From contig NZ_CP061288.1 of NCBI RefSeq assembly GCF_018687355.1, positions 503,939 through 567,938 on the forward strand: a stretch of 64,000 nucleotides of DNA, given 5' to 3'. Positions 44,765 to 59,879 of the stretch are shown here, piece by piece. The first letter of the stretch is position 1; each line of letters begins with the position of its first letter. The translations under genes and the position numbers were made by a program. The notes below the pieces were generated by a model. It was not told the origin of the DNA, did no database searches, and worked only from the letters and a program-made list of their open reading frames with translations. This DNA is from Polynucleobacter sp. VK25 (lineage in GTDB: Bacteria; Pseudomonadota; Gammaproteobacteria; Burkholderiales; Burkholderiaceae).

Positions 44765-44773
44765 AGTGTTCCT

Positions 44774-45943
44774 TTAGAAAGATCTTGGCAGACCAAGAAC
44801 ATGCTCGGCAATATAGGAGTAAATCAAATTCGTTGAAATTGGCGCTACTTGATAGAGGCGAGTTTCCCTAAACTTGCGTTCAACATCATATTCATTGGCA
44901 AAGCCAAATCCTCCATGAGTCTGTAAGCAGACATTGGCTGCTTCCCAGGATGCTTTAGCGGCTAGGTATTTAGCCATGTTGGCTTCTGGTCCACAAGGCT
45001 GGTGATTGTCAAATAACTCGCAAGCTTTGAAGCGCATGAGGTTAGCAGCTTCAGTTTCAATATAGCTATCAGCAATCGGAAATTGAATCCCTTGATTTTT
45101 ACCAATAGGACGATCAAATACAACACGGTCATTGGCATAGCGACGAGCGCGATCAATAAACCAGTAGGCATCACCAATACATTCAGCTGCGATTAATACA
45201 CGTTCTGCATTGAGGCCATCTAGGATGTATTTAAAGCCTTGACCTTCAGTGCCGATGAGGTTCTCCGCAGGAATCTCAAGATTATCAAAGAACACCTCAT
45301 TGGTTTCATGGTTGACCATATTGGCGATTGGTCTGACTTCCATGCCTTTGCCAATGGCATCAGCAAGATTCACGATAAAGATCGACATACCCTCTGACTT
45401 GCGCTGCACTTCACTCAGCGGAGTAGTGCGGGCCAATAAGATCATCAGATCAGAATGTTGAATTCTGGAGATCCAAACCTTTTGACCATTCACGACGTAT
45501 TTGTCACCCTTTTTAACTGCGGTAGTTTTAAGTTTGGTGGTGTCGGTTCCCGTAGTCGGCTCTGTAACAGCCATACTTTGGAGGCGTAGCTCACCTGATG
45601 CAATTTTTGGGAGATACATTTTTTTCTGAGCTTCGGAGCCGTGACGCAATAAAGTACCCATGTTGTACATTTGCCCGTGGCATGAACCTGAGTTGCCGCC
45701 CGAAAAATTAATTTCCTCCATGATTACCGAGGCCTCGGCTAAACCTAAACCCGAGCCGCCATATTCTTCCGGAATTAATGCTGCCAACCAACCGGCCTTA
45801 GTCATGGCATCGACAAAAGCTTCTGGATAGCCACGCTCGTGATCAATCTTTTGCCAATAAGCGGAATCAAAAGATCCACAAAGGTCACGCAATGCTTCAC
45901 GCATTTCTTGGTACTGGTCAGGCTTTGGAATAGGGTGATTCAT
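44774..45943 (-). CDS. Acyl-CoA dehydrogenase, IVD/LCAD-like active site
   Basis: An FAD flavoenzyme of 389 residues that oxidises acyl-CoA to enoyl-CoA. AVTEPTTGTDT and VNGQKVWIS line the flavin site. The usual catalytic Glu near the C-terminus (in EGT of SCAD and MCAD) is absent; the segment reads RLYQVAPIS. A Glu is present in NAERVLIAAE, the position used by isovaleryl-CoA and long-chain dehydrogenases. HGGFGFANEYDVERKFRE is otherwise normal. It is first in the operon with the CoA-transferase. Confidence 0.93.
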   Translation of the reverse strand: MNHPIPKPDQYQEMREALRDLCGSFDSAYWQKIDHERGYPEAFVDAMTKAGWLAALIPEEYGGSGLGLAEASVIMEEINFSGGNSGSCHGQMYNMGTLLRHGSEAQKKMYLPKIASGELRLQSMAVTEPTTGTDTTKLKTTAVKKGDKYVVNGQKVWISRIQHSDLMILLARTTPLSEVQRKSEGMSIFIVNLADAIGKGMEVRPIANMVNHETNEVFFDNLEIPAENLIGTEGQGFKYILDGLNAERVLIAAECIGDAYWFIDRARRYANDRVVFDRPIGKNQGIQFPIADSYIETEAANLMRFKACELFDNHQPCGPEANMAKYLAAKASWEAANVCLQTHGGFGFANEYDVERKFRETRLYQVAPISTNLIYSYIAEHVLGLPRSF

Positions 45944-46103: not shown

Positions 46104-46607
46104 ATGGACTCTATGTTCGAGCATTTTTTTGGATGGTTTGGAATGCCATCCGTTGGGTTGCCGGCGGTATTTATCAGTGCTTTTATTTCGGCGACATTAA
46201 TTCCAGCCGGCTCTGAGCCCATCTTGTTTGGCTATATCACTCTGAATCCCCATTTATTTTGGGTCGCCATTATGGTTGCTACCGTTGGGAATACCCTGGG
46301 CGGGATGGTGGATTGGTGGCTTGGCTTGATAGCGCGTAATAGCTTTAAAACAATGGATGAGCCGAGTAACAGCCGCCTTAAGCGCTGGCTTGAGAATTGG
46401 GGTCCCAAGTTGTTGCTGTTATCTTGGCTACCCGGATTGGGCGATCCTTTGTGTCTAGCGGCCGGATGGTTAAAGCTCCCATGGCAGCCTTGCCTCATTT
46501 ATATGTTTATCGGGAAGTTATTCCGCTTTATTGCATTAACCTGGCTCTTAACTTTGGTCCCCGATAGTTTTTGGCATCAGCTGGGACATTGGCTGCATCT
46601 GATTTAA
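46104..46607 (+). CDS. YqaA-family membrane protein (DedA-like)
   Basis: A 167-residue inner-membrane protein of the YqaA/SNARE-associated family with about four hydrophobic segments and the motif WLPGLGDPLCLAAGWLK. The start is ATG 46104 with GAGGG nine bases upstream; an in-frame ATG at 46023 would add 27 polar residues. Function unknown, possibly lipid transport like DedA. Its stop shares TTAA with livF. Confidence 0.85.
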   Translation: MDSMFEHFFGWFGMPSVGLPAVFISAFISATLIPAGSEPILFGYITLNPHLFWVAIMVATVGNTLGGMVDWWLGLIARNSFKTMDEPSNSRLKRWLENWGPKLLLLSWLPGLGDPLCLAAGWLKLPWQPCLIYMFIGKLFRFIALTWLLTLVPDSFWHQLGHWLHLI

Positions 46608-47308
46608 ACCGCGCAATACTTCTGCTGAATCTCATCGTTGTTTAAAAGATTCTGGGCAGTGTCATGAAACACAATCTCACCCTGATCCAAGATATAGGCC
46701 CGATCAGAAATTTTCAAAGCTTGTTGCACGTTTTGCTCGACCAGCAGAATAGTTAGGCCTTGCTGCTTTAGTTTAGCAAACAACTCAAACATCTCTTCAA
46801 CCAAGACCGGCATGATGCCCTCTGAAGGTTCGTCGAGCAGAATGACTTTAGGCTTGCCAATCATGGCTCTAGCAATCGCTAGCATTTGCTGCTCACCACC
46901 GGACATCGAGGTGCCATCTTGATTCAAACGCTCTTTGAGTCTTGGGAAAGTTTCAGCGATTTCATCTACTAAGGCGCTCATGTCGCCGGAATTCTTCTTT
47001 GCAATTACTCCAAGCTCAAGGTTTTCTTTGACAGTCAGTCCTGGAACAATGCGGCGATCCTCTGGAACGTACGCAAGGCCCAGGTGAAAGCGTTCATGAG
47101 CGGGTAAGTCTAAAAATGACGTGCCATCAATAGAGGCTTTACCTTGGCGCTTAGAAAGGAGGCCCATTAGTGAGCGTAGGGTGGTGGTTTTACCAGCACC
47201 ATTGCGGCCCATCAAGGTCACAATTTCACCTCTATTTACTTCAAGTGAAACACCTTGCAGAACGTGACTCCGGTCATACCATGCGTTTAAATTTTCTACA
47301 CGCAACAT
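46604..47308 (-). CDS. livF: HAAT-family ABC transporter ATPase LivF
   Basis: The second ATPase of a branched-chain amino acid/aromatic-type importer, 234 residues: Walker A GRNGAGKTTTL, signature MSGGEQQMLAI, Walker B KVILLDEPSEG. It is last in the minus-strand run livH-livM-livG-livF, 14 bases after livG. The substrate may not be an amino acid, because the run adjoins catabolic genes. Confidence 0.93.
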   Translation of the reverse strand: MLRVENLNAWYDRSHVLQGVSLEVNRGEIVTLMGRNGAGKTTTLRSLMGLLSKRQGKASIDGTSFLDLPAHERFHLGLAYVPEDRRIVPGLTVKENLELGVIAKKNSGDMSALVDEIAETFPRLKERLNQDGTSMSGGEQQMLAIARAMIGKPKVILLDEPSEGIMPVLVEEMFELFAKLKQQGLTILLVEQNVQQALKISDRAYILDQGEIVFHDTAQNLLNNDEIQQKYCAV

Positions 47309-47322
47309 AATTTGCTTTCTAT

Positions 47323-48078
47323 TTAACCTTGACCTAGGTACACACGACGTACCTCAGCATTATTTTGGATTTCCTCTGGCGTACCCTCAGCCAAAAACTC
47401 GCCGTGATGCAGAACTATGATGCGCTTACATAAGCCCATAATGAGTTTCATCTTGTGCTCAACCAGAATCACCGTACGTTCACTGGCAAGGGTACGAATG
47501 AGCTCCATCATGACCAATGTTTCTTCTGGAGACATGCCGGCAGTCGGCTCATCAAGTAATAGTAGGCTAGGGTTACAGGCTAAAGCCATCGCAATTTCCA
47601 GTGCACGCTGTTGGCCGTGGGCCAGGTCACCCGTTTTCTTATTTCGTAGGTGTTCTAGATTGACTCGGCGGAGCAGTTGGTCGGCGAGCTCAATAGGGCC
47701 TGGGTAGCTTTGCGCATTCCGGAGAAAGTTATAGCGTGCCGTTTCCATTTGCGCGGCAACGCGGACATTCTCATGAACGCTGAGTTGTTTAAAGACGTTT
47801 GTAATCTGAAAGCTTTTAGAGATACCAACGCGAGCAAACTCGTGTTGCTGCATTCCGGTAATGTCTTTGCCATTAAAGAGAATTTGACCGCTTGTAGGAG
47901 GGAAGGCACCACTCAAGACATTAAAGAATGTACTTTTACCTGCGCCATTAGGCCCAATGATTGCAGTCAGTGTTCCAGGCATAAAGCTAGTGGATACATC
48001 CTGCAATGCCTTGAACTTACCAAAGCTCTTGCTGACATGACGTGCTTCAAGAATAGGAGTGGTAGTTGCGCTATTCAT
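47323..48078 (-). CDS. livG: HAAT-family ABC transporter ATPase LivG
   Basis: The first ATPase, 251 residues: Walker A GPNGAGKSTFF, signature LAHGQQRALEIAMAL and Walker B SLLLLDEPTAG. The long insert between Walker A and the signature is typical of LivG. Its start overlaps the livM stop (base 48078 shared). Confidence 0.93.
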   Translation of the reverse strand: MNSATTTPILEARHVSKSFGKFKALQDVSTSFMPGTLTAIIGPNGAGKSTFFNVLSGAFPPTSGQILFNGKDITGMQQHEFARVGISKSFQITNVFKQLSVHENVRVAAQMETARYNFLRNAQSYPGPIELADQLLRRVNLEHLRNKKTGDLAHGQQRALEIAMALACNPSLLLLDEPTAGMSPEETLVMMELIRTLASERTVILVEHKMKLIMGLCKRIIVLHHGEFLAEGTPEEIQNNAEVRRVYLGQG

Positions 48079-49037
48079 TATTTCGAATCCTGATTAATTT
48101 GTAACTTACTCAGAATGGTTCCCCAGATTCCCTTAGGGAAGAACAGCACAAAGAACATAAAGACTAAGCCAACGACCGCCATCCAGTGTTTGGTAAAGGT
48201 GGTAACAACATCCTCTAGATAGAGCATGACGGCAGCACCAATGAACGGACCAAAGAATGTCCCCATGCCACCCAAGATGCTCATCATCACTGCTTGGCCA
48301 GACTGTAAATAGTGCAGTGAATCAATTGGCACAATAGAGAGGTGCAGGGCGCGCAATGAGCCTGCTAAACCGCAAATGGCAGCTGACAATACGAATACCA
48401 ATAGTTTGGTGCGAGCCACATCAAAGCCGCAAGCTGCTGCACGCTTCTCATTCTCGCGAATCGCTTCCATCACGGCCCCTAAGGGTGAACTCAGAATGCG
48501 AGAGATCAGCCAAATTGCAATCACTACAAAAAAGAGAATGATGTAGTACTTCACCAATGGATTTAAAAAGTCCACTGGAATACCCAAGACGTTAAATTCA
48601 TCAACACGAACGCCGCGCAAACCATTCTCGCCGCCGGTAAGGCTCTCTGCTTTATAAAATATGTAATACACAATTTGACCAAGCGCTAAGGTCACCATGG
48701 AGAAGTAGATGCCCCGAGTGCGAATGGCTAGATAACCCATGATGAGTCCGCCGATAGCGGCGCCAATGATGCCAATCAAAATTGCGGCGCCCCAAGGCAT
48801 TCCATAATGAACAATGCCAATACCGGTGAGGTAGCTACCGATGCCTAAAAATGCTGCATGGCCAAAGGATAGAAGGCCCATATAACCAAACAGTAAGTTA
48901 AAGCCCATGGCGAACAAACCGAAGATCAAAATATTGATCGCCAACGCTTCGTACGGCATGATGAATGGGAAGATTGCCAAGAACAGCGTACTGGCTAGGA
49001 CGCGATGACGTGCAATGAGTTGGAAAAATGAATTCAT
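48078..49037 (-). CDS. livM: HAAT-family ABC transporter permease LivM
   Basis: A 319-residue permease with about nine to ten hydrophobic segments. NLLFGYMGLLSFGHAAFLGIG and GARE/EAA-like ENEKRAAACGFDVARTKL mark the coupling loop (landmarks: Gly-His and Glu-Asn-Glu). It lies 14 bases after livH. Confidence 0.92.
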   Translation of the reverse strand: MNSFFQLIARHRVLASTLFLAIFPFIMPYEALAINILIFGLFAMGFNLLFGYMGLLSFGHAAFLGIGSYLTGIGIVHYGMPWGAAILIGIIGAAIGGLIMGYLAIRTRGIYFSMVTLALGQIVYYIFYKAESLTGGENGLRGVRVDEFNVLGIPVDFLNPLVKYYIILFFVVIAIWLISRILSSPLGAVMEAIRENEKRAAACGFDVARTKLLVFVLSAAICGLAGSLRALHLSIVPIDSLHYLQSGQAVMMSILGGMGTFFGPFIGAAVMLYLEDVVTTFTKHWMAVVGLVFMFFVLFFPKGIWGTILSKLQINQDSK

Positions 49038-49051
49038 AAATATACGGAGCC

Positions 49052-49936
49052 TTAGCCCATCGCTCCTGCTTTACCAAATAAACCTTGTGGGCGAATTAAC
49101 AGTACTACTGCCATCAAAACAAAAATGGAGAGCTCTGCTAAGTCAGGGAAGAAGAGGGAAGTCATGCTGTAGACAATGCCTACTAATAAGCCAGCAACGA
49201 CAGCGCCTACTGGTGAGCCCATACCACCAACTACGGTCACGACAAAAGACTCCGCCAAAATGGGGATACCCATTTCTGGGTTTACTGAGCGTGTTGGGGA
49301 GGCCAGAATTCCAGACAGACCAGCAATTGCACAGCCCAGTCCAAAAACTAATAGCCAAACCTTGGCAATATCAACACCAAGCACTTTCACGATCTCTTGA
49401 TCGGCGGCACCAGCTTTAATGATCAGGCCATAGCGCGTCTTTTGAATAAAGAACCAGACGCCCAAAATAATGACAGCGGTAGCAGCAATTAAGAAGAGGC
49501 GATATTTAGGGAAATAACCAATGCCTACGTTCATTGTTCCGCCAAGACCCTCGGGGGTAACTGAAGGTAGGCCTTCAATGCCAAAGGTAACGCGCATCAC
49601 TTCAATCAAAACATAAGAGAGGCCAAAGGTCAGTAGCAGGGGGTAATCTAGGCCGCGCCCATAAAGAGGTCTTACCAAGAATCGTTCAGTAACAAGACCT
49701 ATGCCGCCAGTAAGCAATGGAGTTAGCACTAAGCTAAACCAAAAGCTTCCGGTAACGCCCAAAAAGTACACCCCTAAAAATGCGCCCACCATAAAGAAGG
49801 CGCCATGAGCGAAGTTCACCACGTTGAGCATGCCAAAAATGAGACATAAGCCCAGGGCTAAAAGTGCATAAATACTGCCCAAGGCGATGCCTGTAAGCAA
49901 CTGCATGCAAAGAAGTTCAAATGAAAGACCGGTCAT
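49052..49936 (-). CDS. livH: HAAT-family ABC transporter permease LivH
   Basis: A 294-residue permease with about eight hydrophobic segments. GSIYALLALGLCLIFG and NFAHGAFFMVGA are the characteristic LivH N-terminal blocks, and GADQEIVKVLGVDIA-like AADQEIVKVLGVD is the coupling loop. It is separated from the binding-protein gene by 87 bases containing two hairpins. Confidence 0.92.
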   Translation of the reverse strand: MTGLSFELLCMQLLTGIALGSIYALLALGLCLIFGMLNVVNFAHGAFFMVGAFLGVYFLGVTGSFWFSLVLTPLLTGGIGLVTERFLVRPLYGRGLDYPLLLTFGLSYVLIEVMRVTFGIEGLPSVTPEGLGGTMNVGIGYFPKYRLFLIAATAVIILGVWFFIQKTRYGLIIKAGAADQEIVKVLGVDIAKVWLLVFGLGCAIAGLSGILASPTRSVNPEMGIPILAESFVVTVVGGMGSPVGAVVAGLLVGIVYSMTSLFFPDLAELSIFVLMAVVLLIRPQGLFGKAGAMG

Positions 49937-49948
49937 AAATGTACTCAG

Positions 49949-50013
49949 AAAAAACTCCCCGCTACCAATTGGTGTTGGGGAGTGGATCAGGGTGAATTAG
50001 TAATCCACCCTGA
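49949..50013 (-). terminator. Two hairpins after the binding-protein gene, second with a T-run
   Basis: Read on the minus strand, a TCAGGGTG/CACCCTGA stem (50013-49987) is followed by ACTCCCC/GGGGAGT (49983-49954) ending in a T-run at 49954-49949. The second loop contains the palindrome ACCAATTGGT, so the hairpin can extend. It is a credible attenuating terminator between the binding protein and livH. Confidence 0.75.
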
Positions 50014-50023
50014 AATTTTTGGA

Positions 50024-51259
50024 TTAGGCTTTGTGGCCTAGCTCTGCGCAAGAGCGCATATTTTTCTCAGTAGTAGGTTCAATCGTCAAAATATTGAAGA
50101 CGTCATACTTGTCTTTCATATTCTTAGATTTAGACTCTACGATGATGACGGTTTGTACGGCTTGATGATCGCACTTACGGTAGTACTCAGGTCCTTTGTA
50201 CCAGTCGTACTTCATATTCTCCATTGCTGCGACTACTTTTAGGGTATCGGTAGATTTTGCAATCTTTACCCCAGCCAAGACGCTCTTCACACCAGCGTAG
50301 CCAAGTGCGCCGTAATCGGAAGGCACGGAGCCGTTATACATTTTTCGGAAAGCATCATTAAATGTTTTTGCAGTTGGGATGCGATCTTCTAGACCCCAGT
50401 AATAAGATGTACCGCCAATGATGCCTTCAAAGGCCTCTGGCCCACCTGCAAGGCGTGAAGTATAGAGAAGTACTGGCGTAACAATCTTCATGCTGGATTT
50501 GAGGCCAAAGTCGGTACATTGTTTTGCCGCATTAACTAAGTCGCGACCAAAGTTACAGAGAACCAAAATATCTGGATTCAAAGCTTTGATACGTGGCAAG
50601 AAAGCGGAGTAATCAGATGCGCCCAATGGGTGACGAATGTCAGCCAAGGTGGTGGCGCCCATTTCTTTGCCGGCACGCTCAAATGCACGAACCATTTCAT
50701 GGCCGTAAGCATAGTCGGCTGTTAAGAACACAATCTTTTTACCAAAACGAGGAATAGAGTAGCGCGCTACAGCACCAGCTGTCATTGTTGGGTTTAATGC
50801 TTCGTGGAATGTGTAAACGCTCCAGTCTTTTGCTTCGTTAATTGCATCAGATTGGCTGATGGAGTTAAACAAAACTTTACGCTCTTTACATACGGCATTA
50901 ATTGAGAGTTGAGTTGCTGCGGAAAGTGAGCCAACTACAAAATTGACTTTATCTTTTTCAATTAACTCTAAAGTACGGGTTGCTGCTTCGCCTGGGTTTA
51001 GTTTGTCGTCACGCACCAAGAGTTCCGCTTTGCGACCATTAAATCCGCCGGCATCGTTAAATTCCTTGATGGCTAATTCAGCGGCCTTTACTTGATCCTG
51101 TGCCTCAGCAGAAAAAGGACCTGTCAAAGGAGTTGGGAAACCGATCTTAATAGTGTCAGCTTGAGCGTTTGCAACATTTAGCCAAAGTGGGGTGCTTGCA
51201 GCTGCAGCTCCACCAATCAACATCTGTCGTCTTGTTTGATTCGTTACTTTTTGTTTCAT
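50024..51259 (-). CDS. HAAT-family ABC transporter substrate-binding protein
   Basis: A periplasmic binding protein of 411 residues with a leucine-binding-protein-like fold (IKIGFPTPLTGPFSA; GGRVxxVSIS-like NFVVGSLSAATQLSINAV). The N-terminus carries a twin-arginine-like signal (TRRQMLIGGAAAAS, cleavage near NAQA). The start ATG 51259 is chosen because GGAGGAG lies six bases upstream; 51274 would be inside this site. It is unusual in not resembling amino-acid-specific LivJ closely, so the ligand may be an aromatic or another acid. Confidence 0.92.
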   Translation of the reverse strand: MKQKVTNQTRRQMLIGGAAAASTPLWLNVANAQADTIKIGFPTPLTGPFSAEAQDQVKAAELAIKEFNDAGGFNGRKAELLVRDDKLNPGEAATRTLELIEKDKVNFVVGSLSAATQLSINAVCKERKVLFNSISQSDAINEAKDWSVYTFHEALNPTMTAGAVARYSIPRFGKKIVFLTADYAYGHEMVRAFERAGKEMGATTLADIRHPLGASDYSAFLPRIKALNPDILVLCNFGRDLVNAAKQCTDFGLKSSMKIVTPVLLYTSRLAGGPEAFEGIIGGTSYYWGLEDRIPTAKTFNDAFRKMYNGSVPSDYGALGYAGVKSVLAGVKIAKSTDTLKVVAAMENMKYDWYKGPEYYRKCDHQAVQTVIIVESKSKNMKDKYDVFNILTIEPTTEKNMRSCAELGHKA

Positions 51260-51334
51260 GGTTGTCTCCTCCATATAAAACTTTGTTAAATAAGAATACT
51301 TTTTGTTTTTTTAAATCTTAACTGAATGCGCCTT

Positions 51335-52576
51335 TTAATGGGCGGATTCAGGCACTGCTTTCCCTTTAGCCAATAGATCGCTGATATCAATCGCGGTCTC
51401 TGCCATGACAGTATCGGCATTTCTTTTGAGCTTCTCGTTATCCCTATTGCCTTTACTACCCTGAGCTTGCATATAGCGCCCTAAATATTGAGCTCTGGCC
51501 ACTACCTGCTGACCCATTTGGAGTCGCTCCTCCCCATATGCGCTGAGTGCTGCAGGGGAGGCGCCAAGTGCAGCAATATGCTTTGCAATCACTATTGCTT
51601 CGTCAGCCGCCTTTGTAACTCCCATTCCGACATGTGGTCTGCCAACAAAAGCTGCGTCACCCATCAATGCGATTCTGCCAAAGACAATTTGCTCGGAGCG
51701 AACGTCATAGATTGCTTGTAAGAATGGGGCCGCTGTTTTTTCAAGAATCTCAGCGTATTGAGGGGCCAGAATTTCTCTAGCTACTTTGCGCATATGAGCA
51801 ATATGCTTCCAAGAGACTTTTAGTGGAGGAATGCCAGTAGGGTAGTAATGCCCATTGTCATCAGTTAAGAGGCTAACTAGCTCTTCATGCTCTGATGCTG
51901 GGCGATACCAAACAAAGTTATAGCGACGCTTGCCTGGGCGGGTATCGTTGCCAGAACCAGCAACTGGATACCCTAGCATTTGCTCGCCATTAGGTAAGCA
52001 AAAGCCAAAGCGATTAAATAGGGTCTCGAGTGTGTAATTAGATAGGCAGGCTTCATCACATACGCCGCGCCAGGCTATATAGCCAGCATATTCAGGCTGA
52101 ATCTGCGGCGCAACTTGAGCTCTTACGGCAGAACGAATGCCATCAGATGCAATCAGTAGCTCAGCATCATATTGACTGCCATCCTCACACATTACCCGTA
52201 CAGCGTTCGCATCTTGTGTAACTGACTTCACTGTCTTGCCTTGAAGATAGCGTTCAATTGGAAAGCTTTCCTTTAGCATCTGATACAAACGACTCCAGGA
52301 GGTAAGTACTTGAGGTAACTCGATCTCACCAAGACTTTGGCCGTCGGCACCTAAAGTAATGCGTTTAGTTACGGGTACACCCAGAGTTTCATCAACGGTA
52401 ACCCCAGCAGCTCTCAGTGCTTGGGCCAGAGCGTCATGAGTCACAATTCCGGCACCGCGACCGTCCATGGATCCAACGGTTTTTTCTAGCAAGGTAACGT
52501 CATGACCTTGGCGCAGCAAAATATTTGCTGCGAACAAGCCACCAAGAGAGCCGCCAATGACTAGAATTTTTGCCAT
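51335..52576 (-). CDS. FAD-dependent monooxygenase (UbiH / DHPH-like)
   Basis: A flavoprotein hydroxylase of 413 residues. GGSLGGLFAANILLRQGH is the FAD-binding fold near residue 8, GRGAGIVTH matches the loop of 2,6-dihydroxypyridine hydroxylase-type enzymes, and LMGDAAFVGRPHVGMG is the second FAD motif (GD). IASDGIRSAVR is the third, near residue 150. The start at ATG 52576 has AGGAG upstream; TTG 52579 is an alternative. It is cotranscribed with a VOC protein and the ABC importer. The substrate is presumably a hydroxylated aromatic or N-heteroaromatic. Confidence 0.85.
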   Translation of the reverse strand: MAKILVIGGSLGGLFAANILLRQGHDVTLLEKTVGSMDGRGAGIVTHDALAQALRAAGVTVDETLGVPVTKRITLGADGQSLGEIELPQVLTSWSRLYQMLKESFPIERYLQGKTVKSVTQDANAVRVMCEDGSQYDAELLIASDGIRSAVRAQVAPQIQPEYAGYIAWRGVCDEACLSNYTLETLFNRFGFCLPNGEQMLGYPVAGSGNDTRPGKRRYNFVWYRPASEHEELVSLLTDDNGHYYPTGIPPLKVSWKHIAHMRKVAREILAPQYAEILEKTAAPFLQAIYDVRSEQIVFGRIALMGDAAFVGRPHVGMGVTKAADEAIVIAKHIAALGASPAALSAYGEERLQMGQQVVARAQYLGRYMQAQGSKGNRDNEKLKRNADTVMAETAIDISDLLAKGKAVPESAH

Positions 52577-52585
52577 CAATGACTC

Positions 52586-53044
52586 CTATGTTGCTTTCGC
52601 ATCAAGAGCAGTTTTTTCTGAGGCTGGATAGTTCAATTCAATAACAATGCCATTAGGATCATCCAAAAATATTTGATGGAGTCCTATTACTGGTACGGTG
52701 CGCTCGCGATAGGAAATCTTTAATTCTTTTAACAGGTTAATTTTCTCTTCTAAGCCATTTGCAAAAAAAGCAATGTGATCAACGGCGCCAGATCCATGAA
52801 GCGAACTAGGGTCGCGCTCACCTAAATATTTTTTTAGTCCGTTTGGATCATTCTTATCGATAGCAATGAGGTGTAAGACTGCATTTGCCCAACTGCTCTC
52901 ATCACCGTTGTAAAGCCATACTCCTGGAAACGGAAACTCTGGCCTTGGGCCGACTGTTAGGCCAAGCAACTTGCTGTAGAACTCAGTAGTTTTTTCGATC
53001 TCGAGACTGCGAATAGAGAAGTGATTCAGGCTTAAGTTAGACAT
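52586..53044 (-). CDS. VOC-family protein (glyoxalase/dioxygenase fold)
   Basis: A 152-residue vicinal-oxygen-chelate protein with metal-ligand candidates His8, His90 and Glu136, plus a His at 58. Two beta-alpha-beta-beta-beta modules are visible. VOC members include glyoxalases, extradiol dioxygenases and lyases, so the reaction cannot be named. The location between TetR and the FAD monooxygenase suggests it acts on an oxidised intermediate. Nine bases separate it from the monooxygenase gene. Confidence 0.82.
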   Translation of the reverse strand: MSNLSLNHFSIRSLEIEKTTEFYSKLLGLTVGPRPEFPFPGVWLYNGDESSWANAVLHLIAIDKNDPNGLKKYLGERDPSSLHGSGAVDHIAFFANGLEEKINLLKELKISYRERTVPVIGLHQIFLDDPNGIVIELNYPASEKTALDAKAT

Positions 53045-53058
53045 GGTGACCTTTTGAT

Positions 53059-53751
53059 TTAAGCAAATAGTGATTTGGCGGAATGAAGGTAGGACTGCAC
53101 CCGATCGCGAATGATTTCTTGTTCTGTATCGGGGCTCTCAGCGGCATAGATGGCTTGCCCGTAGATCCAGCGTCTCATGCCAATGTAAAAGACGCCGCCA
53201 TGCAGTCCCATGAGAAATTCAAGTTCACGCTGCGTGGGTTTTGATGTATCTACTCTACCGCAATACTTGCGAGTTTCACGAATGAGTCTGGGTAATAAGC
53301 GGGTGCGCAAGAGTTCAAAGAAGCGATCGCTGATGGAGTGGTCACTTAGGCCAGAGAAAATCAAGATGCGCACAAAGTCATAAGTTAAGACTGTGTTGGA
53401 ATAGTCCAAATAGAAAGCATTCAATTTTTCTTCTGGAGTGAGCGAGTCATCATCTAACAACTCTTCCCATTCTGGCTTCCATCTAGATTCAAATACCTCT
53501 TTGTAAACCTCTTGAATCAGAGCATCTTTGGTTGGGAAGTAGTGGTAGAGCAGGGTGTGGGTAATGCCTAATTCTTTGGACAAATTTCTCAATTGACCAT
53601 CGATGCCATTTCTGGCAAAGAACTGAATTGCGCTATCCAATATTTGACGTTTTCTCTCAACCGTTCCCATTCTTTTTCGGATGGGCGCCATCGAGCCTTC
53701 TGAAATTTCAGCAGTATTTGGGCTGGTAACGCTATCTTCAGTAAAACGCAT
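53059..53751 (-). CDS. TetR-family transcriptional regulator
   Basis: A 230-residue regulator with an N-terminal helix-turn-helix (RQILDSAIQFFARNG ... GITHTLLYHYFPTKDALI) and a helical ligand-binding part. The first 25 residues are polar and the true start may be the internal Met21. It is divergent from the coxG-like gene across a 112-base region with a palindrome over a promoter, so it likely controls both directions. Confidence 0.9.
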   Translation of the reverse strand: MRFTEDSVTSPNTAEISEGSMAPIRKRMGTVERKRQILDSAIQFFARNGIDGQLRNLSKELGITHTLLYHYFPTKDALIQEVYKEVFESRWKPEWEELLDDDSLTPEEKLNAFYLDYSNTVLTYDFVRILIFSGLSDHSISDRFFELLRTRLLPRLIRETRKYCGRVDTSKPTQRELEFLMGLHGGVFYIGMRRWIYGQAIYAAESPDTEQEIIRDRVQSYLHSAKSLFA

Positions 53752-53783
53752 GGATTCTCAGGGTTTATCCGAATTTGGACTTA

Positions 53784-53821
53784 TTGACCACAAGTTAAAT
53801 AATGGTACATTGTTGAACAAT
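53784..53821 (+). promoter_or_regulatory. Promoter and TetR operator before the hydroxylase operon
   Basis: TTGACC (53784-53789) and TACATT (53806-53811, 16-base spacer) make a plausible promoter. The perfect palindrome ATTGTT-G-AACAAT (53809-53821) overlaps the -10 region, where a TetR repressor would block transcription. The tetR start codon is 33 bases upstream on the other strand. Confidence 0.55.
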
Positions 53822-53863
53822 TGGTAGATAAGACTCTATTCGTACAAACCCCAAGGAGATCAA

Positions 53864-54340
53864 ATGGAACTAAATGGCGAGCAACTCATATCGGCTCCAA
53901 TCCCTGATGTATGGAAGGGTTTGAACGATATCGACGTGCTGGCCAAGTCCATTCCGGGTTGCGAGGAGATCAGTCGCATCTCTCCTGAAGAGATTCATGC
54001 CAAGGTAATGTTCAAGATAGGGCCTGTTAGAGCGCGTTTTGCGGGGAAATTGCTCCTTAGCGACATCATTCCAGACCAGTCTTGTTCTATGGCCTTTGAG
54101 GGGTCTGGTGGGGCAGCAGGTTTTGCCAAGGGTAAGTCGCGGGTTGAGCTGAAGCAGGCTGAAGGAGGCACTTTGGTTACATACACGACCGAAGCCTCTA
54201 TTGGTGGCAAATTAGGTCAAATTGGCGGTCGCTTGATTAGCGCATCGGCAAAAAAGATTGCAGACGACTTTTTTCAGAAGTTTGCAAAAGAATTAGGCGG
54301 GGAGACAGTGGCGTTGGAGTCAGACGCTGGCAGCAAATAA
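53864..54340 (+). CDS. CoxG-like SRPBCC protein of the molybdenum hydroxylase set
   Basis: A 158-residue SRPBCC/START-domain protein. The opening LNGEQLISAPIPDVWKGLND and the IPGCEEI motif match CoxG, which recruits CO dehydrogenase-type enzymes to the membrane. Here the C-terminus ends shortly after the domain, without the hydrophobic tail seen on some CoxG proteins. A consensus AAGGAG precedes the start. It is the first gene of the hydroxylase operon. Confidence 0.85.
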   Translation: MELNGEQLISAPIPDVWKGLNDIDVLAKSIPGCEEISRISPEEIHAKVMFKIGPVRARFAGKLLLSDIIPDQSCSMAFEGSGGAAGFAKGKSRVELKQAEGGTLVTYTTEASIGGKLGQIGGRLISASAKKIADDFFQKFAKELGGETVALESDAGSK

Positions 54341-54452
54341 AGGAGCAGCAAAAAAGCTCTAAAACTATAAAAAGTAGTTGCAGTAAACAACTAAAGCAGT
54401 ACAAAAAATATAAAGCTAAAAAGCGAATTACATTCGTGGTGGAGGAGACGCA

Positions 54453-55307
54453 ATGAAGTCTGCAGCATTTGATTATGTAAAGCCTAAGGCATTACAAGAG
54501 GCTTTGTCTTTGCTTGAGCAGGGTGGCGACGATGCTCGCTTAATTGCAGGCGGACAAACTCTATTAGCCACATTGAACATGCGCTTGTCTGAACCTAGCG
54601 TATTAATTGATATCACTGACATTGCCGAGCTAAAAGGTATTTCCATTGTTGGGAATAGTCTGCGCATTGGTGCGTTAGTGACGCATACCGAAATTGAAGA
54701 TTCAGAGTTGGTGGCAAAGCATGCGCCGCTTTTAAAAGCTGCAGCCCCGCATATTGCGCATCGCGCTATTCGTAATCTAGGGACCTGGGGCGGCTCCTTG
54801 GCCTACGGGGATCCAGCGGCTGAATGGCCCGCCTGCAGCTTGACCTTGCGGGCGACGATGATTATTCATGGACCAGCTGGTGAGCGTCGAATTTCAGCAA
54901 ATGATTTTTTCATCGATCTCTATACAACTTCCTTAGAGCCTGATGAAATCTTGGTAGCTACTGAGATTCCACTTGCTAATCAGCAAGAGGTCTTCTATTT
55001 CCATGAGCTTGCTAGACGTCATGGAGATTATGCGGTTGCTGGATTAGCGGCAGTTGCACAAAAGCAGGGCGATATTTTGACTGGCTGCGCTTTCACTTTC
55101 TTTTCGGTTGGTGCAACACCAGTGATGGCAACAAAAGCTCAAGACTTGGTGAATGGTCAAAAGCTAACCGATGAAGTGATCGCTAAAGCAGTGACTGAAG
55201 CGCGCAATGAAATCGAAGCCATTGCAGACATCACCAATAGCGCAGAAGCGAAACAACATTTAATTGGTGTGCTTCTTGAGCGCGGACTCAAGCAGATGAT
55301 TGCTTAA
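54453..55307 (+). CDS. Molybdenum hydroxylase FAD subunit (CoxM-like)
   Basis: The medium, FAD-binding subunit of a xanthine dehydrogenase-family enzyme, 284 residues. IAGGQTLLATLNMRL near residue 30 and TWGGSLAYGDPAAE near residue 112 are the FAD-contact motifs; ATEIPL and GDYAVAG are typical too. A strong GGAGGAG site precedes the ATG. It follows the CoxG-like gene after a 112-base, very A-rich gap with no obvious ORF. Confidence 0.92.
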   Translation: MKSAAFDYVKPKALQEALSLLEQGGDDARLIAGGQTLLATLNMRLSEPSVLIDITDIAELKGISIVGNSLRIGALVTHTEIEDSELVAKHAPLLKAAAPHIAHRAIRNLGTWGGSLAYGDPAAEWPACSLTLRATMIIHGPAGERRISANDFFIDLYTTSLEPDEILVATEIPLANQQEVFYFHELARRHGDYAVAGLAAVAQKQGDILTGCAFTFFSVGATPVMATKAQDLVNGQKLTDEVIAKAVTEARNEIEAIADITNSAEAKQHLIGVLLERGLKQMIA

Positions 55308-55338
55308 GCTCAATCAATAAAAGAATTCGGAGATCAGA

Positions 55339-55848
55339 ATGAGTTTGAAGAAAAAAATTTCAATGACGGTAAATGGTCAACTGGTAAATGCAGAGATTGA
55401 GCCACGTAGACATCTGGTAGATTTTTTGCGTGAAGACTTGTATCTCAAAGGCCCGCATTTAGGTTGTGAGCAGGGTGCATGCGGGGCTTGCACCGTTAGG
55501 GTAAATGGGCAAATTATTCGTGGATGCCTCTTTCTGGCAGTTCAGGCCGATGGTGCCGTGGTTGAAACGGTCGAAGGTCTCACTAAAAATGGCGTTTTAA
55601 CCGATCTACAAGAATCATTCATGCGTCACAACGCAATGCAGTGTGGCTTCTGTTCTTCGGGCATGTTATTGGCAGCAGCAGAGTTAATTGAGAAGCAACC
55701 CAAAGCAACACGCGAAGAAGTGCGCGAATGGATTTCTGGCAATTACTGTCGTTGCACTGGCTATCACTCGATTGTGGATGCCATTGTCGATGTATTGGAT
55801 GCTCGCGCTAAGGGCCAAAAAATTAAACCTGTCCTTGCTAACGCTTAA
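55339..55848 (+). CDS. Molybdenum hydroxylase [2Fe-2S] subunit (CoxS-like)
   Basis: The small subunit, 169 residues, with two 2Fe-2S clusters. Cys43/48/51/63 (GCEQGACGACT) form the plant-ferredoxin cluster, and Cys102/105/137/139 (QCGFC and CRC) the helical one. Both are complete. It lies 31 bases after the FAD subunit and 20 bases before the Mo subunit. Confidence 0.94.
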   Translation: MSLKKKISMTVNGQLVNAEIEPRRHLVDFLREDLYLKGPHLGCEQGACGACTVRVNGQIIRGCLFLAVQADGAVVETVEGLTKNGVLTDLQESFMRHNAMQCGFCSSGMLLAAAELIEKQPKATREEVREWISGNYCRCTGYHSIVDAIVDVLDARAKGQKIKPVLANA

Positions 55849-55868
55849 GGTATTGAGGAAAACGCATT

Positions 55869-58265
55869 ATGAATAAGCCAAGTGATTTAAAAGGAATGGT
55901 GCTTGATCCGGTAACGAATGATCAACGTTATATCGGTCATAGCGAGCCAAGGCATGGTGCTCGCCGTCTGCTAGAAGGTCAGGGCACTTACATTGACGAT
56001 ATTCAGTTGCCACGTATGGCCCATGTAGTGTTTTGGCGCTCTCCAGTGGCACACATGAAGATCGGCAAAATTCATACAGAGCATGCTAGCAAGATGCCGG
56101 GTGTACTGGCGGTTATTGATGGTGTACAAATGGCAAAAATTTGTAAGCCTTGGGTTGCAACTTTAGGCCATTTGGCAGGCATGAAGTCAGCTCCTCAGCA
56201 TGCATTGGCAATTGATCGCGCTTGTTGGCAGGGCGAGCCAGTAGTGGCGGTAGTTGCTGAAACCCGTGCGCAAGCAGAAGATGCCTTGCAGCATGTCGAT
56301 GTTGAGTGGGAGGAGTTGCCAGCCGTTGTATCTATGGAAACTGCACTAGATGCAGATACTCCTGTAATACATCCAGAGCTTGGTGACAATTTATGTTTTA
56401 CCCGTACCTTAGATGTTGGTAATGTCGATGAAGTGTTTGCAACAGCAGATGTCGTCGCCGAGGCTACTTTTGGATTTGGGCGTCACACTGGCGTAACGCT
56501 TGAACCGCGTTGCCAAATTGCAGATTACAACCCAGGCGATCGTCGCTTGACGGTATATCACTCTCAACAAGCACCACACATGATGCAAGATTTATATTGC
56601 CGTCAGTTTGGGCTTTCAGAATCTGATGTGCATGTGATTTGTAAAGATGTGGGTGGATCCTTTGGCATCAAAGTTCACGCATATCCGGACGACTTTGCAA
56701 CTGTGGGTCTCGCAATGATGCTTGAGCGCCCTGTGAAGTTTGTTGCGGATCGCTTGGAATCATTTACAAGTGATATTCATGCACGTGAGCATCGTATCAA
56801 AGGCCGTATTGCCGCTAACAAAGCAGGCGATATCCTCGCATTTGAAATCGATGACTTAACTGCCATCGGCCCTTACTCGATGTTCCCAAGGACAAGCGCC
56901 ATTGAGGGTAATCAGGTGGTGAACTTGGTGGGTGGCCCATACAAGCATCAGAACTATCGCGCTCAATTAAATGTCGTTTTCCAGAATAAAACCCCAACCT
57001 GTCAATATCGTGGGGTAGGTCATCCAATTGCCTGTGCAGTTACCGAGGGTTTAGTTGATTTAGCTGCGCAAAAATTGCAGATGGATCCACTTGAGTTCCG
57101 CAAACGTAACGTCATCCCAGATGATGCTTATCCATGCTCCGGAATTTCTGGCATTAAGTTAGAAGTGCTTTCGCATGAGCAATGCTTGCGAGCAATTGAA
57201 AAAATGATGGACTACCCAGCATTACGTAAAGAGCAGGCAGAATTACGTAAGAAGGGTATTTATCGCGGTATTGGATTTGCGACCCTAATCGAACTCACAA
57301 ATCCAAGTCCCGCTTTTTATGGAGTGGGCGGTGCTCGCATTGCGTCTCAGGATGGTGCTACGGTGCGCATGGACCCAAGCGGTGTGATCTCTGTATTAAT
57401 TGGTGTGGGTGAGCAGGGCCAGGGTACAGAAGGTATCTACACTCAAATTGCAGCCGATGCTGTTGGAGTTTCAATCGATCAAGTGCGCGTAGTGACTGGC
57501 GATACTGATGTCACACCTTATGGTGGCGGCACTTGGGCGTCACGTGGCGCTGGTGTAGGCGGCGAAGCAGTTCTATTAGCCTCTCAAGCGCTGCAAGAAA
57601 ACATTATTAAGCTTGCTGGCACTATTTTAAATCGTCCTGTTACGGAACTCATTGCGCGACGTGGTCATATCTTAGACAAAGCCACTGGTGAACAGTTGAT
57701 GCCATTTAGTGAAGTGGGAAGAGTGGGTTATTTCCGTACCGATACTTTGCCAGCAGGTTTTTCTGCTGATCTGATGGTGACACGTCACTACACCCAAAAA
57801 GAATATCCATTTATCTTTACGAATGGCGTACAAGCTTCTTATGTAGAGGTTGATCCAGATACAGGCTTCGTCAAGTTATTAAAACATTGGGCAGTGGAAG
57901 ACTGTGGACGCGTGATCAATCCTATGTTGGTTAATGAGCAGGTACGCGGTGCTATTGTTCAGGGTATTGGTGGCGTTCTATTTGAAGAGTGTCTCTATGA
58001 TGAAAGTGGTTTGCTGCGTAATGGCAGCATGGCTGATTATTTAGTGCCTATGGCTAATGAGATGCCCGATATTGAAGTGGCTCACGTAGAGACTCCGACC
58101 CAGTCCTCAAAATTGGGTGCCAAAGGAGCAGGTGAAGCTGGCACTGCAGGTGCACCAGGCGCTGTTCAAAACGCAATCAATGATGCCTTGGCGCCATTTA
58201 ATGCAACCGTCTTTGATCAGCCGATTACCTGCGAAAAGATCCTGCGGGCTCTCAAGAAAATCTAA
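55869..58265 (+). CDS. Molybdenum hydroxylase large subunit (CoxL/XdhB-like)
   Basis: The molybdopterin subunit, 798 residues, hydroxylating a substrate carbon with water-derived oxygen. Active-loop residues at 378-386 read CQYRGVGHP. Form I CO dehydrogenase has AYxCSFR, so this is not that enzyme. The catalytic Glu is Glu756 in GAGEAGT. QGTEGIYTQIA and GGGTWASRGAG line the cofactor. It likely hydroxylates an N-heterocycle or aldehyde; the substrate is unknown. There is no CoxD/E/F or XdhC-type maturation gene nearby. Confidence 0.92.
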   Translation: MNKPSDLKGMVLDPVTNDQRYIGHSEPRHGARRLLEGQGTYIDDIQLPRMAHVVFWRSPVAHMKIGKIHTEHASKMPGVLAVIDGVQMAKICKPWVATLGHLAGMKSAPQHALAIDRACWQGEPVVAVVAETRAQAEDALQHVDVEWEELPAVVSMETALDADTPVIHPELGDNLCFTRTLDVGNVDEVFATADVVAEATFGFGRHTGVTLEPRCQIADYNPGDRRLTVYHSQQAPHMMQDLYCRQFGLSESDVHVICKDVGGSFGIKVHAYPDDFATVGLAMMLERPVKFVADRLESFTSDIHAREHRIKGRIAANKAGDILAFEIDDLTAIGPYSMFPRTSAIEGNQVVNLVGGPYKHQNYRAQLNVVFQNKTPTCQYRGVGHPIACAVTEGLVDLAAQKLQMDPLEFRKRNVIPDDAYPCSGISGIKLEVLSHEQCLRAIEKMMDYPALRKEQAELRKKGIYRGIGFATLIELTNPSPAFYGVGGARIASQDGATVRMDPSGVISVLIGVGEQGQGTEGIYTQIAADAVGVSIDQVRVVTGDTDVTPYGGGTWASRGAGVGGEAVLLASQALQENIIKLAGTILNRPVTELIARRGHILDKATGEQLMPFSEVGRVGYFRTDTLPAGFSADLMVTRHYTQKEYPFIFTNGVQASYVEVDPDTGFVKLLKHWAVEDCGRVINPMLVNEQVRGAIVQGIGGVLFEECLYDESGLLRNGSMADYLVPMANEMPDIEVAHVETPTQSSKLGAKGAGEAGTAGAPGAVQNAINDALAPFNATVFDQPITCEKILRALKKI

Positions 58266-58291
58266 TTACATCTGAGTTTTATTGGATTTTG

Positions 58292-58322
58292 CCCACCCTC
58301 GAGCGTCTGCTTTTGGGGTGGG
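58292..58322 (+). terminator. Weak hairpin after the hydroxylase operon
   Basis: CCCACCC and GGGTGGG form a 7-base-pair stem with a 17-base loop, followed by only TTAG. It may slow or partly end transcription between the Mo subunit and the SDR gene. Confidence 0.4.
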
Positions 58323-58398
58323 TTAGCTCATCCTGTAACATCAAGTTTTGGGCAAAGCGATATGCATGCCCTCTAGTTAACTTGATACGGTAAAAGAT

Positions 58399-59175
58399 AT
58401 GTCCACATTAAAAGGTAAAACTGCCTTAGTCACCGGCTCCACTAGTGGTATCGGCTTGGGAATGGCCATTGCATTGGCAAAGCAAGGCGTCAATATTATG
58501 GTCAATGGCTTTGGCGAAAAAGACGATGCGATTGCCAAAATTAAAGCCTGCGGAGTAGAGGTGGATTATCACGGTGCAGATATGAGTAAGCCTGCTGAGA
58601 TCGAAGATCTCATTAAGCAAACACAAAAGCGCTTTGGATCATTAGACATCCTCGTCAATAATGCTGGAATTCAGTACACGGCTAATGTTGAAGATTTTCC
58701 GGCTGATAAGTGGGACGCGATTATTGCAATTAATTTAAGTTCTGCATTTCATACAACACACCATGCGTTGCCTGGAATGAAAAAGCGCAACTGGGGTCGC
58801 ATCATCAATATCGCTTCAGTGCATGGTTTGGTGGCATCTACTCAGAAGGCCGCTTATATTGCTGCTAAGCACGGTATCGTTGGTCTCACGAAAGTAATTG
58901 CTCTAGAAAATGCACGCACCGGTATTACCTGTAATGCAATTTGCCCAGGTTGGGTTTTAACCCCCTTAGTTCAAAAACAAGTAGATGCTCGCGCAGAGCG
59001 CGAAGGTATTTCTATTGAAGCGGCAAAGACTGCCTTGGTATCTGAGAAGCAGCCATCTGGAGAGTTTGTCACCCCAGAGCAATTAGCAGCCTTGGCAGTA
59101 TTTCTTTGTGGCCCAGATGCTTCTGAAGTTCGTGGCGTGGCTTGGAACATGGATGGTGGTTGGACTGCGCAATAA
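58399..59175 (+). CDS. 3-hydroxybutyrate dehydrogenase-like SDR
   Basis: A 258-residue short-chain dehydrogenase. TGSTSGIGLG is the NAD-binding glycine loop, NNAGIQYTA a structural motif, and Ser-Tyr-Lys catalysis is represented by IASVHG and YIAAKHG (Tyr and Lys four apart). The GSTSGIGLGMA...NGFGE style is that of D-3-hydroxybutyrate dehydrogenase in proteobacteria, which links polyhydroxybutyrate or short-chain acids to acetoacetate. It is 133 bases downstream of the hydroxylase, so cotranscription is not certain. Confidence 0.87.
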   Translation: MSTLKGKTALVTGSTSGIGLGMAIALAKQGVNIMVNGFGEKDDAIAKIKACGVEVDYHGADMSKPAEIEDLIKQTQKRFGSLDILVNNAGIQYTANVEDFPADKWDAIIAINLSSAFHTTHHALPGMKKRNWGRIINIASVHGLVASTQKAAYIAAKHGIVGLTKVIALENARTGITCNAICPGWVLTPLVQKQVDARAEREGISIEAAKTALVSEKQPSGEFVTPEQLAALAVFLCGPDASEVRGVAWNMDGGWTAQ

Positions 59176-59285: not shown

Positions 59286-59879
59286 ATGGCATCAATCTTG
59301 ACCTCTTTAGGACGTACCGTATTAGCGGGCTTCGTTCTTCTCGTTCTAATTATTTTCGCTTTGGGCGGCAACTTTAGTTCTGCTGAACTCCCATTCATTT
59401 TCCGTTGGTTGCACGTGATGTTTGGTGTGATGTGGATTGGTTTGCTCTGGTACTTTAACTTTGTGCAAATTCCTTCTATGCCAAAGATTCCTGATGAGCA
59501 AAAGCCAGCGATTGGTAAAGTGATTGCTCCTGCAGCATTGTTCTGGTTCCGCTACGCAGCATTGTTTACTGTAGTTACTGGTTTGATCGTTGCTGCATTA
59601 AGTGGTTATTTGCATCAAGCCTTCACATTACAAGCTCCATTCCGCGCAATCGGTTTGGGTATGTGGATTGCTTTGGTAATGGCCTTCAACGTTTGGTTCA
59701 TCATTTGGCCAAATCAAAAACGTGCTCTTGGCATCGTTGCTGTTGAAGCTGACGTAAAAGCAAAATCTGCTCGCGTTGCGATGTTGACTTCCCGTCTGAA
59801 TACATTGTTATCAGTGCCAATGTTGTTCTTGATGGTTGCTCAATCACACAACACTACTTGGTTCGTGATCGTTTCTTAA
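59286..59879 (+). CDS. PuuD-type urate hydroxylase-like membrane protein
   Basis: A 197-residue protein with about five hydrophobic segments. FIFRWLHVMFGVMWIGLLWYFNFVQIPSM (key residues His, Trp-Ile-Gly and Asn-Phe-Val-Gln) resembles the membrane domain of PuuD (Urate_ox_N family). It lacks the C-terminal cytochrome c domain found in longer PuuD proteins, so urate activity is doubtful. An AGGAG precedes the start. TATAGT at 59248-59253 is a possible -10. A strong terminator follows. Confidence 0.65.
   Translation: MASILTSLGRTVLAGFVLLVLIIFALGGNFSSAELPFIFRWLHVMFGVMWIGLLWYFNFVQIPSMPKIPDEQKPAIGKVIAPAALFWFRYAALFTVVTGLIVAALSGYLHQAFTLQAPFRAIGLGMWIALVMAFNVWFIIWPNQKRALGIVAVEADVKAKSARVAMLTSRLNTLLSVPMLFLMVAQSHNTTWFVIVS

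Follow-up and report, generated by a model that had tools for sequence, protein, structure and literature searches.

In Arthrobacter, the pyridine pathway for nicotine uses the molybdenum hydroxylase Kdh (7dqx) and the class A FAD monooxygenase (FMO) 2,6-dihydroxypyridine hydroxylase (DHPH; 2vou), and we know of no VOC or HAAT partner for either enzyme. Here we analyse a gene cluster that likewise pairs a molybdenum hydroxylase with a class A FMO of the same broad subfamily, together with a single-domain VOC protein, a HAAT importer and a TetR regulator. The cluster lies in a 64,000 nt window (the whole stretch of DNA that was analysed) of the 2.0 Mb genome of Polynucleobacter sp. VK25 (NZ_CP061288.1, 503,939-567,938, forward strand). 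We propose, with moderate confidence, that it encodes a peripheral pathway, controlled by TetR, for the catabolism of a single small N-heteroaromatic, probably an acid or an amide. The branch of the Arthrobacter DHPH in the FMO tree is very long, and, unlike the window FMO, the enzyme has no GRGAGI loop.

Other described systems resemble parts of the cluster. In the caffeine C-8 oxidation cluster of Pseudomonas sp. CBB1, cdhABC-tmuM-tmuH-tmuD (PMC4408171), a xanthine/CO dehydrogenase-type trimeric dehydrogenase is also followed by an FAD monooxygenase acting on an N-heterocycle; the window differs in having a VOC gene, in a genome without a match to HIU hydrolase or OHCU decarboxylase, and in an FMO of the PRK07236 subfamily that scores 100 against the HpxO model (cut-off 500). 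An FMO followed by an extradiol dioxygenase in one operon is established logic, as in hcdABC of Pseudomonas mandelii, where a type I, class II extradiol dioxygenase cleaves the product of a class A FMO (PMC6222606). Its substrate, unlike that proposed here, is phenolic, and its three-gene operon is without a molybdenum hydroxylase. The acetosyringone cluster asdABCDE of Pseudomonas rhizophila, reported to be narrow in its distribution, contains both an FMO and a VOC family gene, the role of the latter being left unresolved there, but its substrate is again phenolic and no molybdenum hydroxylase is among the listed asd genes (PMC12911418). In the lumichrome pathway with LumJ, a xanthine-oxidase-type enzyme primes an N-heteroaromatic ring for O2-dependent opening, as we propose here, but with a Rieske dioxygenase and a catechol dioxygenase instead of an FMO and a small VOC protein (PMC12746152).

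An earlier note on this DNA, made from the letters alone (the sequence-only reading), could name no pathway with this combination, and we found none in the open-licence literature, searched mainly at title and abstract level. As far as our searches reach, the cluster is a real, conserved and uncharacterised catabolic module.

Organisation of the gene cluster

The region 46604-59175 of the window holds 13 adjacent genes, with reading frames open at all of the following coordinates:

46604-47308, minus strand: LivF-type ATPase of the HAAT importer (sequence and homology)
47323-48078, minus strand: LivG-type ATPase of the HAAT importer (sequence and homology)
48078-49037, minus strand: LivM-type permease (sequence and homology)
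49052-49936, minus strand: LivH-type permease (sequence and homology)
50024-51274, minus strand: HAAT substrate-binding protein (SBP; Pfam Peripla_BP_6, 1.8e-83)
51335-52579, minus strand: class A FMO (Pfam FAD_binding_3 and FAD_binding-like)
52586-53044, minus strand: single-domain VOC protein (Pfam Glyoxalase, 1.3e-05)
53059-53751, minus strand: TetR regulator (Pfam TetR_N)
53864-54340, plus strand: CoxG-type protein (Pfam COXG, PF06240, 5.3e-27)
54453-55307, plus strand: CoxM-type FAD subunit (Pfam FAD_binding_5 and CO_deh_flav_C)
55339-55848, plus strand: CoxS-type subunit (Pfam Fer2 and Fer2_2)
55869-58265, plus strand: CoxL-type molybdenum hydroxylase large subunit (Pfam MoCoBD_1/2)
58399-59175, plus strand: SDR, 3-hydroxybutyrate dehydrogenase-like, a neighbour and not part of the core (Pfam adh_short)

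Pfam was run on ten proteins (SBP through SDR, plus that at 59286-59879), and the four Liv genes were assigned from sequence and homology to annotated neighbours, not from Pfam. The minus-strand operon runs in the order TetR, VOC, FMO, SBP, LivH, LivM, LivG, LivF, with successive gaps of 14, 6, 60, 87, 14, -1 and 14 bases. TetR is separated from the start of CoxG by 112 bases, with CoxM, CoxS and CoxL following downstream. The divergence of the importer/FMO/VOC arm from CoxG/M/S/L, as the sequence-only reading had described it, is upheld by the open genes and by its recurrence in other genera among the loci compared. That reading also called the divergent centre TetR-regulated; the TetR gene is itself the first gene of the minus-strand operon.

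Distribution of the cluster

In a sample of 37 genomes of the genus, the FMO (E <= 1e-40) and a CoxL orthologue (>= 76% identity) always occur together: 19 genomes carry both and 18 carry neither, although one of the 18 (G028) has a CoxL of 35% identity. The flanking acyl-CoA dehydrogenase, used as a control, occurs in 27 of the 37, including 11 of the 18 without the FMO, and is missing in 3 of the 19. These counts are non-independent because of shared ancestry. In the order at large, 36 of 399 genomes carry the FMO (E <= 1e-75). All twelve core genes are found in the same order in two genomes of one other family (G192 and G132), and eleven in a genome of a third family (G256), in which only a CoxG match is missing (tblastn). 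Two Methylobacterium plasmids carry CoxMSL, SBP, LivHMGF, TetR and FMO in a rearranged order with a cupin-like protein in place of the VOC protein, and are 65% (CoxL), 67-70% (SBP) and 43-45% (FMO) identical to the window. The shared 19 of 37 genus genomes and the same gene set in other families support the earlier view that both arms form one functional unit.

We compared the loci of the best 80 of at least 578 FMO relatives (one genome per GTDB species; 12-row FMO alignment). Their gene content comes from a profile search of stop-to-stop frames and covers the 60 largest clusters, eight clusters judged to be antisense artefacts having been removed before tallying. HAAT or ActP genes are found in 60 of the 80 loci and TetR within 9 kb in 50. 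Of the 80, 29 have a molybdenum large subunit within the stretch, and these subunits are of at least three subtypes: window-type (60-100% identity), Cox-type (31-34% identity) and cytochrome c-linked, which we take to be NicB-like. The most widely shared part of the cluster is the VOC-FMO pair; measured from the VOC coordinates, the 3' end of VOC lies -4 to 100 nt ahead of FMO in 65 of the 80 loci.

In its other contexts, window-type CoxL has hydantoinase, formamidase and PuuE-like neighbours once or twice each, with no consensus. A second CoxMSL set in G003 (L130:4576-11822; 58% to window CoxL) is divergent from another molybdenum large subunit and adjoins a formamidase-type protein and another HAAT importer; in the same genome, a PuuE-allantoinase-like deacetylase (L133:8509-9414) lies between the FMO and a different HAAT set. 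On Dinoroseobacter shibae pDSHI05 and a Loktanella plasmid (L122, L123), a CoxL of 60-61% identity occurs with a TRAP transporter and TetR.

The molybdenum hydroxylase

The hydroxylase has the features of the xanthine oxidase family, namely FAD, two-[2Fe-2S] and MoCoBD subunits and the GxGE glutamate; CoxS contains both [2Fe-2S] motifs, CoxM two flavin-type motifs, and CoxL both CQYRGVGHP (residues 378-386) and GAKGAGE. The active-site loop of aerobic CO dehydrogenase is AYxCSFR, which was not found in window CoxL, and the scores of CoxL against the CO dehydrogenase models are far under cut-off (448.2 against 991.15 for TIGR02416 and 466.7 against 950 for NF040766). On both counts the sequence-only reading was right that CoxL is not a CO dehydrogenase. 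CoxL passes none of the 13 NCBIfam models among the matches listed, the top one being glyceraldehyde dehydrogenase alpha (NF041018, 533.9 against a cut-off of 790), with the xanthine dehydrogenase models also far under cut-off. Its nearest solved relative is quinoline 2-oxidoreductase (1t3q, 9.2e-133), with which it has the YRGVG loop in common.

The genome contains two further MoCoBD_2-domain proteins, each beside a two-[2Fe-2S] protein. At about 894-898 kb (L146:5016-9288), some 330 kb from the cluster and away from all three MoCoBD_2 genes, AAA, VWA_CoxE, RidA-like, MobA-like and XdhC genes lie side by side. From their families, they are likely a maturation set for xanthine-oxidase-family enzymes and could mature the window hydroxylase. 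The earlier statement that maturation genes are absent holds within the window but not genome-wide, given the AAA, VWA_CoxE, MobA-like and XdhC genes of this group.

The monooxygenase and the VOC protein

The window FMO is a member of the PRK07236 subfamily (NF005566, 463.6 bits against a cut-off of 333). At least 6,780 of the 8,000 candidates scored match the FMO at E <= 1e-30. The nearest solved relative is DHPH (2vou, 2.7e-46). In the FMO tree (built without nine short, duplicate or odd rows and without L030, L120 and L121), 2vou has a terminal branch 7.4 changes per column long, and close orthology to DHPH was not found. Residues 40-48 read GRGAGIVTH, which the sequence-only reading took for a DHPH-like loop; that comparison fails, as the equivalent in solved DHPH is GFGTGIVVQ. 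The RGAGI motif is invariant across the 12-row alignment of FMO relatives.

The VOC protein has 152 residues, and its H8, H58, H90 and E136, invariant in 71 sequences, form a putative metal site. H8, H90 and E136 presumably match the two His and one Glu metal positions of type I (VOC) extradiol dioxygenases. Six of the 15 loci without an adjacent VOC gene have a cupin-like protein, which never occurs together with VOC; the label comes from Cupin_2 matches, all weak and under cut-off, in the four proteins of four that were examined. Cupin-like proteins take the place of VOC in loci of Rhizobiaceae, Ochrobactrum and Bradyrhizobium. In Rhizobium, the operon behind the operator described below includes an aldehyde dehydrogenase and an amidohydrolase most similar to aminocarboxymuconate-semialdehyde decarboxylase (ACMSD; 1.4e-58 to 4ign), which, by their families, look like post-ring-cleavage steps.

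TetR and its candidate operator

An operator of the form TATTTATC-N4-GATAAATA is found in relatives upstream of VOC, SBP, FMO or TetR. As a regular expression it occurs upstream in 51 of the 80 loci, against 1 of 80 for the same pattern written backwards as a control. Cupriavidus and Pseudomonas moorei are among those whose copies are intact. Its strict 16-base form was present once each, at the cluster, in two of the seven genomes searched (L110 left out) and in none of the other five. The Polynucleobacter loci were excluded from the training set of the position weight matrix (PWM); the deep-branching Polynucleobacter locus L135 nevertheless has a near-perfect operator before CoxG, with a score of 27.5 (training median 24.1). 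Two unstranded elements lie between TetR and CoxG in the window:

About 53781-53802: decayed operator copy, TTATTGACC-ACAA-GTTAAATAA (PWM match to the relatives' operator)
53809-53821: perfect palindrome ATTGTTGAACAAT (ATTGTT-G-AACAAT) in the TetR/CoxG divergent promoter

The palindrome is the sole exact match in the window and one of two in the genome; among the 19 genus genomes with the cluster, 11 have it at a distance of 1230-1246 nt from FMO. The recognition helix of TetR, in the rows compared, is TQPLLYRYF or near in relatives and THTLLYHYF in Polynucleobacter, a change that would fit a drifted operator. We infer that TetR may bind the decayed copy or the palindrome. The claim of TetR control is strengthened by the conserved operator in relatives, though the window itself has a decayed copy that is not conspicuous.

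Two other patterns were rejected as the relatives' operator: TTGTTnAACAA, which outside the Polynucleobacter group gave only scattered one-mismatch matches, and TTGN5CAA, which was only about twofold enriched. Operator copies on the two plasmids with TRAP transporters score high in Loktanella (23.4 and 17.8) and low in Dinoroseobacter (7.4).

The importer

The importer has the make-up of the HAAT class, with a Peripla_BP_6 SBP by Pfam and two permeases and two ATPases by homology. The four Liv genes are 59-65% identical to equivalent neighbours in annotated plasmid records, and LivF is 62% identical to that of Methylobacterium and 62-66% to those of five compared CoxL-less clusters with this importer. 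The SBP begins with RRQMLIG, which we read as twin-arginine-like.

The SBP tree (20 rows) separates into two groups with 100/100 support, split by the presence of window-type CoxL. The ten rows with window-type CoxL include alphaproteobacterial Methylobacterium, and the ten without CoxL in the stretch are from Burkholderiales genera only; in six of the latter genomes, a whole-genome search found no CoxL of >= 50% identity. The CoxL and SBP trees leave out L112, L113, L030, L036 and L127 as near-duplicates or already represented. Nineteen SBP positions separate the groups, and we read this split as a sign that the imported compound changed along with the molybdenum enzyme.

The window maximum of AT skew (0.254, at 48001-50000) falls over LivM and LivH on the minus strand, and perhaps arises from membrane-protein codon use.

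Proposed pathway and its alternatives

The sequences show the enzyme classes, how the operon is laid out, that the genes occur jointly, that VOC and FMO are paired and, in relatives, the operator; the order of steps that follows, the class of substrate, ring cleavage and binding by TetR are inferred. The HAAT importer would take the compound up, and CoxM/S/L would use water to hydroxylate a ring carbon adjacent to the nitrogen, CoxG perhaps aiding assembly or docking of the hydroxylase. The FMO, with O2 and NAD(P)H, would then hydroxylate the electron-rich ring to an unstable diol- or triol-type product, which the VOC protein may open, most simply as a one-domain dioxygenase. On binding the compound or an intermediate, TetR would let go of the shared promoter region. 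In clusters without the molybdenum enzyme, the importer probably takes up an already hydroxylated compound. Tentatively, the pathway would be part of an unnamed, widespread module for a single class of N-heteroaromatics, with a core formed by a new partnership of FMO and one-domain VOC ring opener (or, in other lineages, the unrelated cupin-like protein) under one TetR operator family, to which molybdenum hydroxylases of at least three subtypes would be optional front ends, the importer specificity having shifted with that addition.

Several observations weigh against this pathway. There is no obvious gene for the ring-opened product beside the window cluster, and our literature search, with the scope given above, found no substrate for any such cluster. 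The window operator copy has a PWM score of 5.2, ranks fifth in the window and is outscored by the average maximum over 40 shuffles (10.5), and TetR shares only 34-43% identity with its counterparts in clusters beyond the close group. A molybdenum large subunit is missing from the stretch of 51 of the 80 loci, some shortened by contig ends, and L116, L119 and L087 (labelled Polynucleobacter or Burkholderiaceae) have VOC-FMO with no Cox genes in the stretch. Searches of 11 genomes with FMO clusters lacking window-type CoxL found none of >= 50% identity elsewhere (best 45%), so that the VOC-FMO core does not depend on its presence. Another molybdenum type lies near FMO in three of the 11. The genus relatives G003 and G015 keep FMO, VOC and CoxL with a different importer nearby in place of the window-type one, and G015 has no TetR match beside these genes. 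Finally, the two SBP groups share 127 invariant positions out of 416, and so their ligands may be alike; the groups may have one common ligand and differ by ordinary divergence.

The step most open to another explanation is ring opening. The structure model of the VOC protein (mean pLDDT 88.6) has methylmalonyl-CoA epimerase chains as its top Foldseek matches (6qh4, 25-26% identity), and epimerases, HPPD and extradiol dioxygenases match it about equally. This tie also counts against the proposed pathway, and because of it the dioxygenase role is only a guess. It is a serious possibility, if not our first choice, that the VOC protein is instead an isomerase, a lyase or a detoxifying enzyme for a reactive FMO product, which would be compatible with the rest of the pathway; the four invariant candidate ligands, in place of a bare three-ligand site, also fit this. 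The cupin-like substitute in Rhizobiaceae, Ochrobactrum and Bradyrhizobium does, however, fit a ring-cleaving metal enzyme, and the ACMSD-like and aldehyde dehydrogenase genes of Rhizobium fit steps after cleavage.

We consider it unlikely that the compound is a non-nitrogen aromatic or an aldehyde, with the molybdenum enzyme an aldehyde or alcohol oxidase and FMO and VOC acting on a phenolic ring as in the acetosyringone (asd) or coumarin (hcd) clusters. In asdA-asdC, from a cluster for lignin monomers, an FMO does have a VOC gene beside it (PMC12911418), NF041018 is the top model for CoxL, though under cut-off, and the cytochrome c-linked molybdenum relatives adjoin OYE and DsbA-type genes. 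Both the YRGVG loop of CoxL and its best solved match nevertheless point to quinoline 2-oxidoreductase, and the closest solved FMO relative, if distant, acts on a dihydroxypyridine.

Oxidation of a methylxanthine or purine at C-8 seems to us improbable. Here CoxMSL would be caffeine-dehydrogenase-like, the FMO would act like TmuM in hydroxylating (methyl)urate at C5, and the VOC protein would stand in for the hydrolase and decarboxylase. In Methylobacterium, with CoxL and SBP close to those of the window (65% and 67-70% identity), FMO follows uraH-uraH-uraD on the same strand, with an NCS1 nucleobase symporter near, but the operator lies between TetR and CoxM and none was seen between uraD and FMO on the two plasmids, so that this FMO may be part of a distinct ura operon. 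The purine-recognising Glu of xanthine oxidoreductases, which we take to be E802 of the bovine enzyme, is apparently Val in window CoxL, and the low scores against the xanthine dehydrogenase models also argue against a purine. Caffeine C-8 oxidation does use a trimeric dehydrogenase homologous to this family, then an FMO (PMC4408171). The window's genome, however, gave no match to HIU hydrolase (uraH, PF00576) or OHCU decarboxylase (uraD, PF09349), in searches that were each positive in 4 of 14 control genomes, and for this reason purines and caffeine, among the candidate compounds of the sequence-only reading, are weakened.

The CoxG/M/S/L gene set, the TIGR02416 and NF040766 matches and the distant genomic group that includes AAA, XdhC and a CoxE-like VWA gene might point to an aerobic CO dehydrogenase whose neighbouring importer operon has nothing to do with it. 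This reading is close to refuted and was rejected, since the AYxCSFR loop is absent, the scores (448-467) are far below the cut-offs (950-991), and CoxL occurs in the same genome set as FMO.

Flanking genes

Three neighbours were tried as parts of the proposed N-heteroaromatic pathway and rejected. The SDR has no match beside the module in L140-L142 and is retained in L119, where no Cox gene matched. The gene at 59286-59879 (plus strand) encodes a 197-residue protein with a partial Urate_ox_N match (146-242 of 295); it accompanies the cluster in Polynucleobacter and is present as well in L119, which gave no Cox match. On the other side, a CoA-transferase III-like and acyl-CoA dehydrogenase pair (43580-45943, minus strand) adjoins the cluster, and the dehydrogenase was rejected as a downstream step because it is present in 11 of the 18 FMO-less genus genomes, a test that did not separately cover the CoA-transferase.

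Significance

Polynucleobacter is an abundant freshwater genus with small genomes, and about half of those examined (19 of 37) carry the FMO and molybdenum hydroxylase. Of the new proposals made here, the most specific concern ring opening by the FMO-VOC pair, the operator and the split among importers. The conserved operator offers a ready ligand-screen reporter in laboratory strains. If true, the proposed pathway would identify a common dissolved N-heteroaromatic on which lake bacteria draw, would give a ring-opening role to a one-domain VOC protein, and would show importers and molybdenum hydroxylases being added to an existing FMO pathway.

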